64,000 nt of DNA from Nitrobacter sp. NHB1 (GTDB lineage: Bacteria > Pseudomonadota > Alphaproteobacteria > Rhizobiales > Xanthobacteraceae): positions 3,138,001-3,202,000 of the forward strand of contig NZ_JBAMDA010000001.1 in NCBI RefSeq assembly GCF_036964665.1. Direction: 5' to 3'. This document shows positions 39,681-52,644 of the stretch, piece after piece. Made by a program: the position numbers and the translations under genes. The notes below the pieces were generated by a model. It was not told where the DNA came from and did not search any database. It saw only the letters and a program-made list of their open reading frames with translations. The stretch's first letter is position 1. Each line of letters starts with the position of its first letter.

Positions 39681-40541
39681 ATGGTGATGGACCTGCTGCG
39701 GTCGCGGGTAGCGCTTGAGGCAGAAGTTCTGGTCTTGCGGCAACAAATCAATGTGCTGCGGCGAACCCGTTCCAGGAGGCCTCCTTCATCTCGATTGACC
39801 GTCTGATATTGGGAGGTATCTGCGGACTGTTTCCAAAAATGTATGATGTACTGGCGATCGTCCGACCGGACACCGTGATCCGCTGGCATCGTGCTGGTTT
39901 CAGATCGCATCGGCGCTGGGAATCGAAGCGTCGCTACGGTCGACCGGCCGTACCGTTGGAAATTCGCCGGCTGGTCCGCGAGATGAGCACCGCCAACCCG
40001 CTGTGGGGAGCACCGCGGATCCATGGCGAGCTGCTCAAGCTTGGCATCGAGATTGGCCAGACCAGTGTGGCCAAGTATATGGCGCGGAGGAGGGCCCCTC
40101 CGTCGCAGGGGTGGAAGACGTTCCTTCGTAACCGTGCTGACAGGATCGCCGCGATGGACCTGTTCGTCGTGCCGACAATCTTCTTTCGTCCTGTCTATGG
40201 GTTGCTGATCATGGGCCATGGCCGGCGGCAGATCCTGTGGTTTGGGGTCACCGCGCATCCGACAGCCGAATGGATCGCCAACCAACTGACGGAGGCGTGT
40301 GGCTGGGAGCAAATCCCTCGTTACCTGATCCGGGACCGCGATGGCGCATACGGCGAAATATTCATGCGTCGGGTTCGGTCCATCGGTATTCGAGATCGCC
40401 CGACGTCTCCTCGCTCACCCTGGCAAAACGCATACGCCGAACGGCTGAACGGATCGATCCGCAGGGATGCGTTGATCATATCGTGGTATTCGGCGAACGC
40501 CATCTGCGCCACGTGCTGCTCTCGTACATGAGCTACTACAA
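39681..40541 (+). pseudogene. rve-type transposase of IS A, 5' part
   Basis: The gene runs MVMDLLRSRVALEAEVLVLR (frame shifted near 39785), then IVRPDTVIRWHRAGFRSHRR, NPLWGAPRIHGELLKLGIEI, ILWFGVTAHPTAEWIANQLT and YLIRDRDGAYGEIFMRRVRS with the DDE motifs. A second single-base loss near 40468 precedes RECVDHIVVFGERHLRHVLL. It reaches SYMSYYN and is then cut by the recombinase element; the tail (GTRTHLSLNKDAP... to stop) is at 43200-43323. Besides the insertion, two frameshifts make it inactive. Confidence 0.88.
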
Positions 40542-40565
40542 TCCTGTTTCATAACACACATCTGT

Positions 40566-42638
40566 CTATGTGATTGGAGAGAAGAGGCTTTGCTGATCTG
40601 GATGCGATCCCGTGGGGTGATTTGGGTTTTGCCTCGCGCGACGAACGAGGCGCTGAGCCGCCGGTTTGCTGAGCGTTGATCGGCTGAAGATCCAAGGACC
40701 ATCCGGCAGAGGATGACCCGCCTCGATCTCGCCCGCTGCGGCGGCGAGCCTAAGCGTCTTCGGTGCAATGCCGAGCAAACCCGCCGCCTTGTTCAGATTA
40801 AGCCATGGCTCGTTCCCATCCGGCGCCGGCCGAAAGACCGGGATCTTATGATGCGACCTGAGCGCGGTGACCCGCTCCCGTATCCAGCGATTGCCGTGGC
40901 CGGTCACCAGGCCGTTCCGGTTGAGAATGCCGGCGATCAGATCATCATTGGCGATGAGAACCAGTTGGCGGACGGCGGCCAGCATGTCGGCGGAGATGCT
41001 ATTGCGCTGTCCGCGGCGGCGCCTCGGCAGGCGCAGTTCGGTATGAACGCCGCCCATCCAATGGGTCAGGAGAACGATCTCTGACGCTTCGTCATCGATA
41101 TCGGCGACCACCTCGTGGATGACGGTGCGCACGATTCGCTTCTTGAGCCTCGCGTCGGTCGACGGCGCCGACCAGACCGCCTTGAGATCAGCGGCCAGCG
41201 CGGCGAGGTGGACTGGCGCCCGTGATGGTGCCGATGTCGCGGCATCATGCGCGGCAATCCTGATCTCGATCTCGCCGACACGTGTGAGCGCGCCGTTCCA
41301 TCGCAACTCCAGTTCCGCCGCGATCAGGCGGTTCTGCGGATCGACGGCATCGTACTGCCGGAATGCCCGATCGGCGCTGTAGCGCGCCGCCTCGAGGTCG
41401 CGCACCAGCGCCTCACGAACCTGATCGCGGCGGTTGGCCGCTTGTGCTTCGGCCTCGACGGCCGTAGCTATCGCTCCCGGTTCGACAACCCGCAGAAGAG
41501 CTTCCTCGATGGCGTCGTCGACACGCAATCCTCCGAATGCGATGCAGCGTGGCTCGCCATTGTCGAGCGAACCCCGCCAACAGGAATAGCGCGGAATGTT
41601 ATGCTTGGCGCCGGTGTAGCGAATCGTCAGCTTGCGTCCACAACGCCGGCAGCGGACAAGGCCGGCGAGCAAAGCGTCGCCGTGCTTCGGCGCTCCGTGA
41701 TGTCGGCCTGTGGGCATGTTGTCGCGCACCATCTTGCGGATCGCCTCCGACCGCTCCCAGCTGACGTAACCCACATGGACGCCTGGGATCAGCGCCAGCC
41801 ATTCGGCTCGCGCCTTACGACGGCGGCTGGGTCGGATCACGCCTGCTGCGTCATATCCTGTCGCGACACGACTCTTACCATAGGCGTAGGCGCCGCCGTA
41901 GATCGGGTTCTCGATCATCCGGTGGATGGTCGCATAATTGGGCCTGCGCCAGACCACGTCACCGTTGTTGCGCTTGGCGGGCAAGTCCAGCCCATGCTCG
42001 ATGAACCAGAGCAGGGCTTGCCGGACACTGCCGAGCTCGGCGACCTTGTCGAAGACCAGAATGACGGCTTCCTGGACACGGCGATCGGGATCCTTCTCGA
42101 GCCTGTCGCCGACCTTCACAAAGCCGACCGGGGCCGCGACGATGAGTTCGCCGCGCCGGGCCTTCTCATAGCGGGCCGACAGGGAACGCTGGCGCAGAAG
42201 ATCGAGCTCATACTCGTTGAGGCTGCCCTTCAATCCCAGCAACAGCCGGTCGTTGCCCTGACGCGGCGCATAGACCATCTCCTGATCGATCAGCACGGTA
42301 TCGACGACGCGGCACATCTCGATCAGCTGCTGCCAGTCGCGGCTGTTGCGGGCGAAACGCGAGACTTCCCGCGCCGCGACCGCACCGACCTTGCCCAGGC
42401 AGACCTCGGCCACCATTCGATCAAAGCCGGCGCGCGCGACGCCGCCCGCCGCCGAGCGCCCGAGATCGTCATCGACCGTTTCGATGCGAGACCAGCCCAG
42501 CGCCGTCAGACGATCGCGCATCGCATATTGCAAGGCGCTGCTCTCGCGATTGTGGAGAACCTGATGGGCGGAGGACTGCCGGACATACAGGATCGCCTTG
42601 CGCTCCAGATGGTGCGGCCTGATCTTCTCAGACATCAT
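40566..42638 (-). CDS. Large serine recombinase of the element, copy 1
   Basis: This 690-aa protein has an N-terminal resolvase domain with [12 protein letters not shown] (Ser22 likely nucleophile), [20 protein letters not shown] and [21 protein letters not shown] recombinase domain (about 190-290) follows with [21 protein letters not shown] zinc ribbon carries [15 protein letters not shown]...YSCWRG. C-terminal helix-turn-helix parts are seen around [20 protein letters not shown] and [20 protein letters not shown]. It should cut and join DNA at the TACAA core. The start overlaps the 74-aa gene by 11 bp. Confidence 0.93.
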
Positions 42639-42852
42639 GACGCATCTCCTCCCGTTCCCGAACGAGGTCGCCGTCGGCGTGGCCGAAGATCAGGCGGACC
42701 AGCAGCTTCGTCAGCGTATGGCGCGTCTCGGCGGGCAACGCCTGCCATTGCGGCGTCTGCGCCGCGGCGTAGGGCGGGTCGCAGAACAGATCGAACTGAC
42801 GTGCATTGCTGTGAGGATGGCGATGAGCGGTAGGCGGGCGTGGCATGGACAT
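42628..42852 (-). CDS. Small accessory protein of the element, copy 1
   Basis: This 74-aa ORF reads [20 protein letters not shown], then [20 protein letters not shown] and [20 protein letters not shown]. The second half resembles the short helical proteins found upstream of such recombinases (ALPAETRxTLTxLLxRL). GGGGAGATGTCC lies before the start and it overlaps the recombinase start by 11 bp, so the two are co-translated. A role as a recombination helper is an inference. Confidence 0.75.
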
Positions 42853-43199
42853 CTCCCCGATTCGTGTCGTGAGAGCCCAATGCTGCGCTTGAATCCCGCA
42901 ATTGCGATGGTGCGCCCGAAACGGACGTCACATCCTGCAGCAGCGTTGCCAAGGCGGTCAGCACCGCAATGTCAACATAGGGTGCGGCGCCGACACACCA
43001 GGCCGCCCGATCGAACATCCACGCCGGAATCTCCAGCCATCGCGCGGATGCCCGACCAATGAGGCTGCACCGGAAAACTTCTCCGCCAGCCTTCTCGATG
43101 ACCTCATGAATATGGACCAGGCATCCGGCCCATGGATGCCACGGATAAAGAAGCTCGCGCTCCTCGGTCCCGTGGGCGTTCTGTCGTCGTGTTGTACAA
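42635..43199 (-). CDS. DUF5372-like gene of the element, copy 1, lacking its own start
   Basis: From the right end the minus strand reads [20 protein letters not shown] and then [38 protein letters not shown] and [20 protein letters not shown]. This resembles DUF5372-type proteins that accompany serine recombinases. No ATG, GTG or TTG suitable as start lies inside the element at the N-terminal side. In the inserted state a start could come only from flanking DNA. The frame remains open to 42635, overlapping the 74-aa gene in another frame, so the real C-terminus is uncertain. Confidence 0.6.
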
Positions 43200-43323
43200 C
43201 GGCACGCGCACCCATTTGTCATTAAACAAGGACGCGCCGATGTCACGCGTCGCCGAGACAGCCGGACGCATTAGCTGTCGTCCGATTCTGGGCGGACTGC
43301 ATCATCAATATACCCGGATTTGA
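43200..43323 (+). pseudogene. rve-type transposase of IS A, 3' part
   Basis: The tail begins directly after the TACAA core: GTRTHLSLNKDAPMSRVAET, AGRISCRPILGGLHHQYTRI, stop. Joined to 40541 it completes the transposase C-terminus. Confidence 0.88.
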
Positions 43324-43791: not shown

Positions 43792-43807
43792 CCGCATAAG
43801 GCGGCTG

Positions 43808-43950
43808 GACCTACCACATATCAAATCTGAGCATATTGATGGTGCAGTCTGCCCGGAATTGGATGGCAGATAATGCGTCCAGATGTCTCGGCGGCGCGTG
43901 ACTTCGGCGCGTCTTTGATCAATGACAAATGGGTGCGCGTGCCGTTGTGG
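43808..43950 (-). pseudogene. Right end and transposase tail of an IS A relative
   Basis: On the minus strand [20 protein letters not shown] and GRIICHPIPGRLHHQYAQI-stop match the IS A transposase tail, followed by a decayed right end. It begins at ACAACGGCACGCGC, the position where the recombinase element sits in IS A. It is joined head-on to a left-end fragment. Confidence 0.78.
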
Positions 43951-47195: not shown

Positions 47196-47415
47196 GTTGC
47201 GCGGTCCTTGTACGGCCCCAGCCTTGATAAGTTGACATAGTGTCATTGACGAGATCAAGGCTTAGAACCGCTGGGACGCGCGAACGTCGCCTCGAGGGCT
47301 TGATGAGTCTTTGAGAGCATTCTGCGGCGTGCTGCGAGATGACATTTAGCTAATGCAAAAAAGCGGACATTCCTATTTATTGCTATAGGGTTTGAACAAC
47401 CGGGGAGATCGTCGG

Positions 47416-48643
47416 GTGTGGTTTCTATCCAATCTCTTGAGGCGCTTTATCCGCCAAGGCACCCTACGAATCCGCGATGCCGGCGGCAAGGTCCATGTGT
47501 TTGGCAATCGATTGCCAGGACCCGATGTCTCCATCGGCCTGCACAATCGTAATTTGTACATGAAGTTGTTCATCAATCCGGAGCTCTACGCCGCCGAAGC
47601 CTATATGGATGGAACGCTGACGCTGGAGAACGACACGCAGATTTACGACTTCTTGCTTCTGTTCTCGGTCAATCGAACGGCGCTTTATTCGTACGGCTCA
47701 CAGAGACTGATGCGGCGGGTCTGGCGCGGCTTGCGGCGCTGGCATCAGGCCAACCCGATCGGGCTCGCGGCTGCGCATGCGCGCCATCACTACGACATCT
47801 CGACCGAACTTTATCGTCTGTTTCTCGACGATCAGATGCAATACTCCTGCGCCTATTCTCGCAATCTGGAGCATGACACGCTCGAACAGGCGCAACACAA
47901 CAAGCTGATCCACGCCACCACGAAATTGCAATTAAAGCCTGGAATGACGGTAGCGGAGATCGGCTCCGGCTGGCGCGCCTTTGCCATTCATCTGGCGCGT
48001 GAGACCGGCGCCCATGTCACTGCGGTCAACGTCTCGCCGGAGCAGATCAAGGCGGCGCGCGGCTATGCCGAAGCCGCCGGGGTTTCCGATCGTGTTAGTT
48101 TCGCGAGTTGGACTACCGCAATCTGACTGGACAATTCGACCGTGTGGTTTCGGTCGGCATGATGGAGCATGTCGGAATTGGACATTTCGATGAATATTTT
48201 CGCAAGATTCGCGAGCTGTTGAAGGCCGACGGCTATGCATTCATTCACTGCATCGGGCGCATGTCGCAGCCGGGCACAACCGGGCCGTTCATCCGCAAGT
48301 ACATTTTTCCGGGCGCCTATGTGCCGGCCCTGTCGGAAACGTTCGCCGCCACCGAACGTTGCGGACTATGGTGCGATGACGTTGAGGTTCTGCGATTGCA
48401 CTACCGCTACACTGTGAAGCACTGGCGAGAGCGCTTTACCAAAAATCGAGCCAAGGCAGCGGCGATCTACGCTGAGCGATTTTGCGGATGTGGGAATTCT
48501 ATCTAGCCGCCGTCGAACTGGAATTCTTGCATGGGTCGCACATGGTGTTTCAAATTCTGCTATCGATCAACCGTGGGGCGGTGCCGATCACCCGCGATTT
48601 TATGGTCGACGCCGAGCGTGCAGCCATGAAGACGGCCAGCTGA
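47416..48643 (+). pseudogene. cfa: Cyclopropane-fatty-acyl-phospholipid synthase, two frameshifts
   Basis: The gene begins at GTG 47416 and encodes the N-terminal part (ELYAAEAYMDGTLTLENDTQ), then HHYDISTELYRLFLDDQMQYS and the SAM site VAEIGSGWRAFAIHLARETG. Near 48103 one base is missing (after RVSF) and the sequence goes on in another frame with LDYRNLTGQFDRVVSVGMME and HVGIGHFDEYF. A second loss near 48493 precedes MWEFYLAAVELEFLHGSHMV to the stop at 48641-48643. Family length is nearly complete, so the decay is recent, or these are sequence errors. Confidence 0.85.
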
Positions 48644-49330: not shown

Positions 49331-49862
49331 ATGATCGGGCTGCTCTGTTTCTCTCTGGCTGTCCTGGCCTCGCCATTCAAGTCGAATTTGCGACTTGAGG
49401 CTGAGAATGCTGTGCTGCTACATCAGTTGATTGTTTTGCGGCGCAAGCTGCGTGGCCGTGTTCGACTCGCAAACAGCGATCGCTGGTTCTTTGTCCAGCT
49501 GTATCGCTGGTTTCCGTCGATTCTGCAGGTTCTCACGATTATCCGGCCCGAGACGCTGGTGCGTTGGCATCGGGCTGGCTTTCGCCGCTATTGGCGCTGG
49601 AAGTCACGATCTTTGGGAGGGCGACCTCAGATCGAGACGGAGCTGCGCGCGCTGATCTGGCAGATGAGCATCGAAAATCCGCTTTGGGGCGCTTGCGCGC
49701 CATGGGCATCCGGGACAAGCCCACCGCACCAGCTTCACCCTGGCAGAATGGCTTTGCCGAACGGCTGATCGGATCGATCCGGCGTGAGTGTGTGGACCAC
49801 ATCATTATCCTGGGTGAGGTGCATCTGCGTCGAGTCCTGCAATCCTACGCCGACTATTACAA
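49331..49862 (+). pseudogene. rve-type transposase of IS B, 5' part
   Basis: The gene encodes AENAVLLHQLIVLRRKLRGR, then RPETLVRWHRAGFRRYWRWK and IWQMSIENPLWGA. A large internal deletion near 49693 removes most of the catalytic core and shifts the frame. It resumes with MGIRDKPTAPASPWQNGFAE and RRECVDHIIILGEVHLRRVL, QSYADYYN, and stops at the recombinase element. The rest (SVRTHRSLNKDAP...) is at 52521-52644. Confidence 0.85.
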
Positions 49863-49886
49863 TCCTGTTTCATAACACACATCTGT

Positions 49887-51959
49887 CTATGTGATTGGAG
49901 AGAAGAGGCTTTGCTGATCTGGATGCGATCCCGTGGGGTGATTTGGGTTTTGCCTCGCGCGACGAACGAGGCGCTGAGCCGCCGGTTCGCTGAGCGTTGA
50001 TCGGCTGAAGATCCAAGGACCATCCGGCAGAGGATGACCCGCCTCGATCTCGCCCGCTGCGGCGGCGAGCCTAAGCGTCTTCGGTGCAATGCCGAGCAAA
50101 CCCGCCGCCTTGTTCAGATTAAGCCATGGCTCGTTCCCATCCGGCGCCGGCCGAAAGACCGGGATCTTATGATGCGACCTGAGCGCGGTGACCCGCTCCC
50201 GTATCCAGCGATTGCCGTGGCCGGTCACCAGGCCGTTCCGGTTGAGAATGCCGGCGATCAGATCATCATTGGCGATGAGAACCAGTTGGCGGACGGCGGC
50301 CAGCATGTCGGCGGAGATGCTATTGCGCTGTCCGCGGCGGCGCCTCGGCAGGCGCAGTTCGGTATGAACGCCGCCCATCCAATGGGTCAGGAGAACGATC
50401 TCTGACGCTTCGTCATCGATATCGGCGACCACCTCGTGGATGACGGTGCGCACGATTCGCTTCTTGAGCCTCGCGTCGGTCGACGGCGCCGACCAGACCG
50501 CCTTGAGATCAGCGGCCAGCGCGGCGAGGTGGACTGGCGCCCGTGATGGTGCCGATGTCGCGGCATCATGCGCGGCAATCCTGATCTCGATCTCGCCGAC
50601 ACGTGTGAGCGCGCCGTTCCATCGCAACTCCAGTTCCGCCGCGATCAGGCGGTTCTGCGGATCGACGGCATCGTACTGCCGGAATGCCCGATCGGCGCTG
50701 TAGCGCGCCGCCTCGAGGTCGCGCACCAGCGCCTCACGAACCTGATCGCGGCGGTTGGCCGCTTGTGCTTCGGCCTCGACGGCCGTAGCTATCGCTCCCG
50801 GTTCGACAACCCGCAGAAGAGCTTCCTCGATGGCGTCGTCGACACGCAATCCTCCGAATGCGATGCAGCGTGGCTCGCCATTGTCGAGCGAACCCCGCCA
50901 ACAGGAATAGCGCGGAATGTTATGCTTGGCGCCGGTGTAGCGAATCGTCAGCTTGCGTCCACAACGCCGGCAGCGGACAAGGCCGGCGAGCAAAGCGTCG
51001 CCGTGCTTCGGCGCTCCGTGATGTCGGCCTGTGGGCATGTTGTCGCGCACCATCTTGCGGATCGCCTCCGACCGCTCCCAGCTGACGTAACCCACATGGA
51101 CGCCTGGGATCAGCGCCAGCCATTCGGCTCGCGCCTTACGACGGCGGCTGGGTCGGATCACGCCTGCTGCGTCATATCCTGTCGCGACACGACTCTTACC
51201 ATAGGCGTAGGCGCCGCCGTAGATCGGGTTCTCGATCATCCGGTGGATGGTCGCATAATTGGGCCTGCGCCAGACCACGTCACCGTTGTTGCGCTTGGCG
51301 GGCAAGTCCAGCCCATGCTCGATGAACCAGAGCAGGGCTTGCCGGACACTGCCGAGCTCGGCGACCTTGTCGAAGACCAGAATGACGGCTTCCTGGACAC
51401 GGCGATCGGGATCCTTCTCGAGCCTGTCGCCGACCTTCACAAAGCCGACCGGGGCCGCGACGATGAGTTCGCCGCGCCGGGCCTTCTCATAGCGGGCCGA
51501 CAGGGAACGCTGGCGCAGAAGATCGAGCTCATACTCGTTGAGGCTGCCCTTCAATCCCAGCAACAGCCGGTCGTTGCCCTGACGCGGCGCATAGACCATC
51601 TCCTGATCGATCAGCACGGTATCGACGACGCGGCACATCTCGATCAGCTGCTGCCAGTCGCGGCTGTTGCGGGCGAAACGCGAGACTTCCCGCGCCGCGA
51701 CCGCACCGACCTTGCCCAGGCAGACCTCGGCCACCATTCGATCAAAGCCGGCGCGCGCGACGCCGCCCGCCGCCGAGCGCCCGAGATCGTCATCGACCGT
51801 TTCGATGCGAGACCAGCCCAGCGCCGTCAGACGATCGCGCATCGCATATTGCAAGGCGCTGCTCTCGCGATTGTGGAGAACCTGATGGGCGGAGGACTGC
51901 CGGACATACAGGATCGCCTTGCGCTCCAGATGGTGCGGCCTGATCTTCTCAGACATCAT
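49887..51959 (-). CDS. Large serine recombinase of the element, copy 2
   Basis: This 690-aa protein is identical in translation to the copy at 40566-42638 except Glu for Lys near the C-terminus (STLSEPAAQ versus STLSKPAAQ). All catalytic and zinc-ribbon residues are kept, so both copies could be active. Confidence 0.93.
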
Positions 51960-52173
51960 GACGCATCTCCTCCCGTTCCCGAACGAGGTCGCCGTCGGCG
52001 TGGCCGAAGATCAGGCGGACCAGCAGCTTCGTCAGCGTATGGCGCGTCTCGGCGGGCAACGCCTGCCATTGCGGCGTCTGCGCCGCGGCGTAGGGCGGGT
52101 CGCAGAACAGATCGAACTGACGTGCATTGCTGTGAGGATGGCGATGAGCGGTAGGCGGGCGTGGCATGGACAT
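51949..52173 (-). CDS. Small accessory protein of the element, copy 2
   Basis: Identical in translation to the 74-aa protein of copy 1. It overlaps the recombinase start by 11 bp. Confidence 0.75.
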
Positions 52174-52520
52174 CTCCCCGATTCGTGTCGTGAGAGCCCA
52201 ATGCTGCGCTTGAATCCCGCAATTGCGATGGTGCGCCCGAAACGGACGTCACATCCTGCAGCAGCGTTGCCAAGGCGGTCAGCACCGCAATGTCAACATA
52301 GGGTGCGGCGCCGACACACCAGGCCGCCCGATCGAACATCCACGCCGGAATCTCCAGCCATCGCGCGGATGCCCGACCAATGAGGCTGCACCGGAAAACT
52401 TCTCCGCCAGCCTTCTCGATGACCTCATGAATATGGACCAGGCATCCGGCCCATGGATGCCACGGATAAAGAAGCTCGCGCTCCTCGGTCCCGTGGGCGT
52501 TCTGTCGTCGTGTTGTACAA
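51956..52520 (-). CDS. DUF5372-like gene of the element, copy 2, lacking its own start
   Basis: Same frame as in copy 1. In this insertion the flanking DNA gives a different N-terminal context; the longest start inside the frame is an internal Met (52339, MFDRAAW). That fits the view that the inserted gene has no proper start of its own. Confidence 0.6.
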
Positions 52521-52644
52521 TAGCGTCAGAACCCATCGATCCCTGAACAAGGATGCCCCGGTTTCTCGCCCGGTTCAGCGAACCGGTGTGATCAGGTCAC
52601 GCGCCATTCTGGGCGGACTTCATCACCGCTACGCCCGTGTTTAA
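52521..52644 (+). pseudogene. rve-type transposase of IS B, 3' part
   Basis: It begins after the TACAA core with SVRTHRSLNKDAPVSRPVQR and continues TGVIRSRAILGGLHHRYARV, stop. The right end of IS B follows. Confidence 0.85.

Follow-up and report, generated by a model that had tools for sequence, protein, structure and literature searches.

Why should two near-identical copies of a small element interrupt two diverged transposase genes at the same codon? The question is raised by a 64,000-nucleotide stretch of the Nitrobacter sp. NHB1 genome (contig NZ_JBAMDA010000001.1, positions 3,138,001 to 3,202,000; hereafter the window), in which each copy carries a gene for a large serine recombinase (LSR) and a small neighbouring gene that we call gene A. 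Comparison with relatives makes it likely, in our view, that this is a minimal integrative element consisting of the LSR and gene A, whose attachment site (attP) recombines with the codons of a transposase motif through a TA core, and in which gene A and the LSR would be under a switch that depends on integration.

Measured from TA core to TA core, copy 1 lies at 40537-43196 (2658 bp plus the second TA) and copy 2 at 49858-52517, both with the recombinase on the minus strand. The original prediction, made from this DNA alone, had reported two 2658-bp copies inside transposase genes with TACAA at both borders. This observation is confirmed: the copies are 2658 bp each, with a single mismatch at window position 40667, and TACAA is seen at both borders of both. 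The interrupted genes, on the plus strand, encode IS3/IS481-type transposases (rve_3; IS3/IS481 models); the 5' and 3' parts lie at 39809-40536 and 43197-43323 for the host of copy 1, and at 49564-49857 (C-terminal domain only) and 52518-52644 for the host of copy 2. The joined flanks of both copies read through the motif, so that excision would restore the transposase frame as had been proposed. The two host insertion sequences (ISs) had been described as differing in coding sequence; they are indeed diverged, but their coding sequences are related, with identities of 239/371 (64.4%) in the left flanks and 76/117 (65.0%) in the right flanks.

Five full copies occur in the genome (3.79 Mb, 4 contigs), matching one another at 2657 or at all of their 2658 positions. 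In every case the insertion in the rve transposase gene follows the Y of YYN or HYN and precedes xxR(T/P)H.SL, the variants being YYN-GTRTH (three copies), YYN-SVRTH (one) and HYN-TERPH (one, in HYN-TERPHSSL). Flank identity is 80-93% among the three GTRTH hosts and 61-67% between these and the SVRTH host; the HYN host flank gives no alignment of useful length with the others. By informal judgement, chance would not be expected to bring insertions to one codon position in three kinds of transposase, and the copies are separate insertions rather than a single duplicated segment. One segmental duplication that included the flanks, which had been named among the findings that would refute the original prediction, is ruled out because elements identical at 2657 of 2658 positions sit in flanks of about 64% identity. 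Empty sites, which that prediction had proposed to look for, were found as an uninterrupted GTRTH transposase in two congeners (L180 and L184 in genome G003, L181 and L185 in G005).

The LSR genes (40566-42638 and 49887-51959, minus strand; 690 aa each) have the same DNA but for one base. The protein has the size (450-750 aa) and the architecture of its family, with an N-terminal Resolvase domain, a Recombinase domain and a zinc ribbon (Zn_ribbon_recom) scoring 66.1, 50.1 and 32.8 bits in Pfam, all over the cut-offs, and among solved structures it comes closest to YokA of SPbeta (E 2.9e-8). In such enzymes the catalytic serine sits in a Y.R.S motif, and Y17, R19 and S21 are invariant across seven aligned relatives. 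The LSR is of a known kind as an enzyme, and what is new is the targeting rule and the gene split by attP. We predict from its sequence that it is active and that the element is autonomous. In the main gene Pfam finds nothing but the LSR domains, so no IS-type transposase (DDE, HUH or DEDD) of the element's own was detected there, and family searches gave no transposase match for gene A or for a further frame, ORF B. A phage origin is unsupported, as one relative was encoded among 110 IMG/VR stretches matching the search patterns, which restrict that search.

How general is the choice of site? A scan of GTDB contigs revealed at least 418 relatives, of which 80 were taken as loci, and genomes with relatives amounted to 10/200, 11/385, 3/144, 21/149, 3/149 and 11/299 under differing queries and limits, with the centre genome counted where it matched. 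A plasmid collection gave matches at E <= 1e-5 in 532 records, three of which were examined further. After 16 duplicate or off-family loci had been skipped and records with the same left end combined (L002 into L001), the final set comprised 153 LSR records, each given the identity of its best tblastn stretch against the window LSR: a close set of 94 (identity to the 690-aa protein 54% or higher) and a distant set of 59. Targets were labelled from phmmer clusters of the frames entering the left end together with flank translations, some at one end only. Families were named by Pfam or NCBIfam matches of cluster representatives, except for the IS66 tnpB (L089) and tyrosine recombinase (L015, L137) labels, which come from the reading of the flanks without a family match.

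Judged from one end or both, 85 of the 94 close records interrupt IS3/IS481-type transposases at YN|..R(P/T)H; one more is in an IS66 tnpB, two are outside mobile genes and six have no target call. The expectation that insertions always fall in the YYN-RTH motif thus held for most close relatives, but not for the IS66 record, the two outside mobile genes or the distant set. The left halves of three scanned transposases (L004, L064, L098) stop at 351-352 of 369 positions of the IS3 model or 266-267 of 284 of the IS481 model. Among 53 sense sites with both ends read, the joined frame is free of stops in 46, and the sites fall into 19 clusters (50% identity, 55 aa), some singletons being contig-end fragments; right ends for these joins were picked with a pattern that fixes Y/F-N and R but not H. 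A control points the same way, though its two sets are not strictly paired, shared phmmer score having decided the choice of test frames and length that of control frames: 38 frames ending at the element match just nine transposase or helix-turn-helix families (rve 19, rve_3 19), whereas the 39 control frames, taken 3.2 kb away, hit 54 varied families, and among the 25 of these listed rve is absent and other mobile-element families account for about 7 of the 39 frames.

The crossover itself is narrower than had been thought. Of 72 left ends that could be read, 70 have TACAA, and 65 right ends read GTTGTACAA (54), GTTGTATAA (4), GTTGTTCAA (3) or two further forms (2 each). At targets with a TAT codon (4 of the 65 right ends) TA is followed by T at the right and by C at the left. 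In addition, the left flank is in reverse orientation in 5 of the 85 motif insertions: in L045, L065 and L173 both ends fit a reversed insertion and have TA alone in common, L073 is reversed as judged from its left end only, and L031 is rearranged, with a 3' half at either side. Because TA is all that the two ends share at TAT-codon and reversed sites, we take TA as the crossover core and place it at 40537-40538 (left) and 43195-43196 (right) in copy 1 and at 49858-49859 and 52516-52517 in copy 2. TACAA as the exchanged core is rejected, the left CAA belonging to the element and the right CAA to the target. As the only sequence that appears common to both ends, TA would have the 2-bp length typical of LSR cores, and since it is its own complement it can explain both orientations of insertion. 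Separately, three Mesorhizobium records (L026, L041, L093) have a right end GTTGTTCAAC at the F-N (TTC AAC) codons of one IS type; their core may have moved from TA to TT with the target, and their left ends are lost or altered.

The target appears to be read as DNA that is conserved for what it encodes. In 50 joined sites the TA, the AA of the N codon, the G of the R codon and the CA of the H codon are fully conserved, N and R being imposed by the search pattern while H was free. Conservation tracks the first and second codon positions and is low at the third, and the target tyrosine codon is TAC in 46 of 50 sites versus 46 of 64 tyrosines elsewhere in the same left halves. Together with the 85 close records and the 19 clusters, this supports the main interpretation of the original prediction, namely a recombinase site conserved because it encodes a protein motif, with the core corrected to TA. 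We propose that the attP of the circle (..GTTG-TA-CAAT..) recombines with the Y-N..R(P/T)H codons of IS3/IS481-type transposases via the 2-bp TA core. Since third codon positions vary freely, many diverged IS genes would be usable as abundant, dispensable sites.

Distant relatives follow the same principle with other addresses. Of the 59, 45 are in mobile-element genes, three are elsewhere and 11 have no target call; the targets comprise IS66 (15), IstB (13), group II intron reverse transcriptase (RT; 7), IS91 (4) and tyrosine recombinase (2) genes, with one each in IS110, IS4, IS1634 and another IS3 site. The same protein resumes in the right flank in 7 of 9 IstB, 6 of 7 RT, 2 of 3 IS91 and 3 of 10 IS66 cluster members. 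Cores placed by hand, with that of L018 uncertain by one base, are CC/AC for IstB targets, GC/CG for the IS66 GRKN group and CA for an IS91 member. A quick tree built from 118 LSRs requires 19 changes of target label (13 groups), against 50.3 when the labels are shuffled, a count in which records without a target call were pooled as one group and long branches make the deep joins unsure. A motif common to DDE transposases, as originally suggested, therefore describes the close set and not the family as a whole: the limitation to DDE transposases is rejected by the IstB, RT, IS91 and other distant targets, and the principle is wider. Sister lineages may have shifted to other conserved motifs of mobile enzymes along with other core dinucleotides, with putative addresses in the tail of DDE transposases, the Walker A of IstB, IS66, the HUH enzyme of IS91, group II RT, IS110 and tyrosine recombinases. 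We lean towards the view that this deep LSR clade consists largely of hyperparasites of the mobilome, which use motif codons as a DNA address, change core with target, and behead gene A on integration so that the LSR stays low until excision, though we hold it less firmly than our reading of the window element itself.

What, then, is gene A? In copy 1 its body lies at 42635-43194 (minus strand), with a stop codon that overlaps the LSR start (ATGA), while two candidate start codons (40550-40552 and 40559-40561, minus strand) lie at the opposite end of the element and come into frame only across the junction of the circle; at that left end, the LSR stop is followed by 4 nt and then ATG. In copy 2 the body is at 51956-52515 (minus strand), and the flank upstream (L003) is open for three codons without an in-frame start. 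Because attP lies inside gene A, as is expected of an integration-dependent gene switch, the gene is whole only in the free circle. Joining the ends in silico brings a left-end ATG, 11, 14 or 23 nt from the core, into frame with gene A in 47 of 49 evaluable close relatives (45 of the 94 were not evaluable); of the two exceptions, L068 is in frame once its right end is re-placed and L173 has extra bases at the left junction. The same holds for 13 of 13 elements placed by hand, which span 38-100% identity and rve, IstB, IS66 and IS91 targets.

Gene A was detected by tblastn in 104 loci, on the upstream side of the LSR, and its alignment has invariant positions (Y, HP, WM, P, L). One of seven gene A bodies scores above the DUF5372 cut-off (PF17342, cut-off 25; L099, 29.1); L021, L132 and L100 fall below it, and L001 (the window copy), L043 and L020 give no match. 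An AlphaFold2 model predicts a small beta barrel with a helix (mean pLDDT 78.8, pTM 0.54), for which Foldseek returned nothing under E 0.12, the best being SH3-like and chromodomain chains. ORF B (74 aa; 42628-42852, minus strand) overlaps the 3' part of gene A in a different frame; it is conserved in 75 loci, and the overlapping part of gene A is conserved as well. Family searches gave no match for ORF B and established an identity for neither protein.

From this arrangement we infer a simple circuit. With attP in the first codons of gene A, start and body would be joined only in the circle, where the assembled gene A would, by translational coupling, lead to more synthesis of the LSR; integration would remove the start, weaken gene A and thereby lower the LSR. 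In line with coupling, the stop of gene A overlaps the LSR start (RTGA-type) in 104 of 128 loci, including 9 of 12 with IstB, 11 of 13 with IS66 and 2 of 2 with tyrosine recombinase targets as well as IS110, IS4 and IS1634 members. Of 61 integrated elements, 39 have no in-frame ATG within 240 nt of flank and 22 have one. A Shine-Dalgarno test was positive in the distant set alone, with a match of at least 5 nt in 14 of 30 elements (mean longest match 4.40 versus 3.44 in shuffled sequence).

Several points weigh against this account of switch and targeting. The overlap count took the LSR start nearest the gene A stop and is biased toward overlap, and the overlap is found in only 1 of 6 RT and 0 of 3 IS91 members. 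The main clade shows no Shine-Dalgarno enrichment (3.50 versus 3.73 shuffled, 58 elements). Since 45 of 61 flanks supply an in-frame ATG, GTG or TTG in the integrated state, gene A is not always silent there. As for the targets, the labels were in part set by eye, 17 of 153 records have no target call, and in five records the insertion is not in a mobile-element gene: L037 (intergenic, following a stop codon) and L086 (in an unnamed frame, at FYYA codons) in the close set, and L094 (four-helix/23S IVP-like), L121 (nucleoside hydrolase-like) and L161 (peptidase M15) in the distant set. Survivorship could also inflate the share found in dispensable genes.

The last point can be pressed further. 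If the LSR needed little beyond TA, and harmful insertions outside transposases were lost, transposases would accumulate insertions without being sought, and both the off-target insertions L086 and L037 and the mobile-gene background around the elements seen in the control would fit. However, transposases are dispensable along their whole length, so loss elsewhere fails to explain why the identical codon is used in many diverged transposases, and separate LSR subclades retain separate motifs; we regard this explanation as unlikely. Still less probable, and already contradicted as a general explanation, is that the copies ride in duplicated ISs, one insertion having spread through transposition of the interrupted IS or through homologous recombination. 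Three of the genome copies do share one IS type, and the flanks of L031, L048 and L067 resemble halves of different ISs (two 3' halves in L031), as if element copies had recombined. Yet the transposase is broken in every copy, relatives occur in many diverged transposases, and the near-perfect agreement of the elements (2657-2658 of 2658 positions) contrasts with flanks that share 80-93% or about 64% identity or cannot be aligned.

For gene A the competition is closer. Rather than serving chiefly as a translational trigger, it could assist the LSR, by binding DNA or as a directionality factor, and be needed only in the circle, for integration. That a small gene conserved in 104 loci is complete only in the circle would suit such a role, as would the weak likeness of its predicted fold to small SH3-like barrels; it has no match to a known cofactor in the family searches, and the overlap with the LSR start suits coupling equally well. 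We consider a mainly helper role possible, at something short of even odds, and note that it can coexist with coupling.

Known systems share parts of this design. In Tn4451, the circle joint creates a promoter for the large resolvase TnpX; here too the joint would raise LSR expression, but through the union of a start codon with a coding body that precedes the LSR and not through a promoter. Group II introns and homing elements use conserved codons or other mobile elements as sites, yet they are RNA- or endonuclease-based, whereas here the RT genes of group II introns serve as targets (7 records). Helper-embedded satellites also have one integrase clade with subclades that track target sites, all within another mobile element; these are large satellites with tyrosine integrases in the late genes of prophages of a specific helper phage, in contrast to serine recombinases on elements of about 2.7 kb that enter conserved motifs in the enzymes of many IS and intron families, so the present enzyme stands outside that clade. 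Searches of the literature, most subscription journals lying outside them, gave no account of LSR elements that use motifs of transposases or other mobile enzymes as their site. In the parts consulted of an LSR survey (PMC10083194), both site-specific and multi-targeting LSRs are described, with competence genes enriched among the targets; those parts contain no mention of transposases as targets. The window LSR resembles the surveyed enzymes in its Resolvase, Recombinase and zinc-ribbon domains, 2-bp core and insertion into coding sequence, and some of these also use many sites. The multi-targeting clade, as far as those passages describe it, is rich in DUF4368 (63%) and has one member with an AT-rich site and a TT core (PMC10083194); our LSR differs in that DUF4368 is not among its Pfam matches at E <= 0.001 and in that its site is a mobile-enzyme motif. 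Mycobacteriophage BPs (PMC4557955) likewise has attP within a gene whose product is changed by integration, although in BPs integration alters the C-terminus of the repressor and in our element it separates the body of gene A from its start codon. The gin element in gerE of Bacillus cereus is another non-phage element that uses site-specific recombinases and restores a gene on excision, but it intervenes in a single host gene, has three recombinases and is excised during development (PMC5595907).

If our reading is right, a site-specific recombinase has gained very many dispensable sites while keeping its specificity, by reading codons that selection conserves in another selfish element. The element may also restrain IS activity, since every insertion breaks a transposase. 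Related LSRs with shifted targets and cores would offer a natural series for the study of how LSR specificity evolves, and possible tools, and the gene split by attP would be a simple, testable integration-dependent switch.

Some smaller features of these loci deserve mention. At 43802-43948 the window repeats the host IS 3' end (NGTRTHLSL..) in inverted form, at 84% identity and with no transposase half before it, and at 47392-48506 a methyltransferase-like gene, which we take to resemble cyclopropane fatty acid synthase, extends over two overlapping frames and appears broken. Elsewhere in the same genome, a distant LSR with 34% identity and one internal TAG (L006, G000:C1:3238879-3240243, frame from 1287) lies, in reverse orientation, next to the C-terminal part of an IstB gene. 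At G657:C1:6899354-6903837 (L137, L149), two different LSR genes are adjacent and share an orientation; one element may lie next to or within the other.

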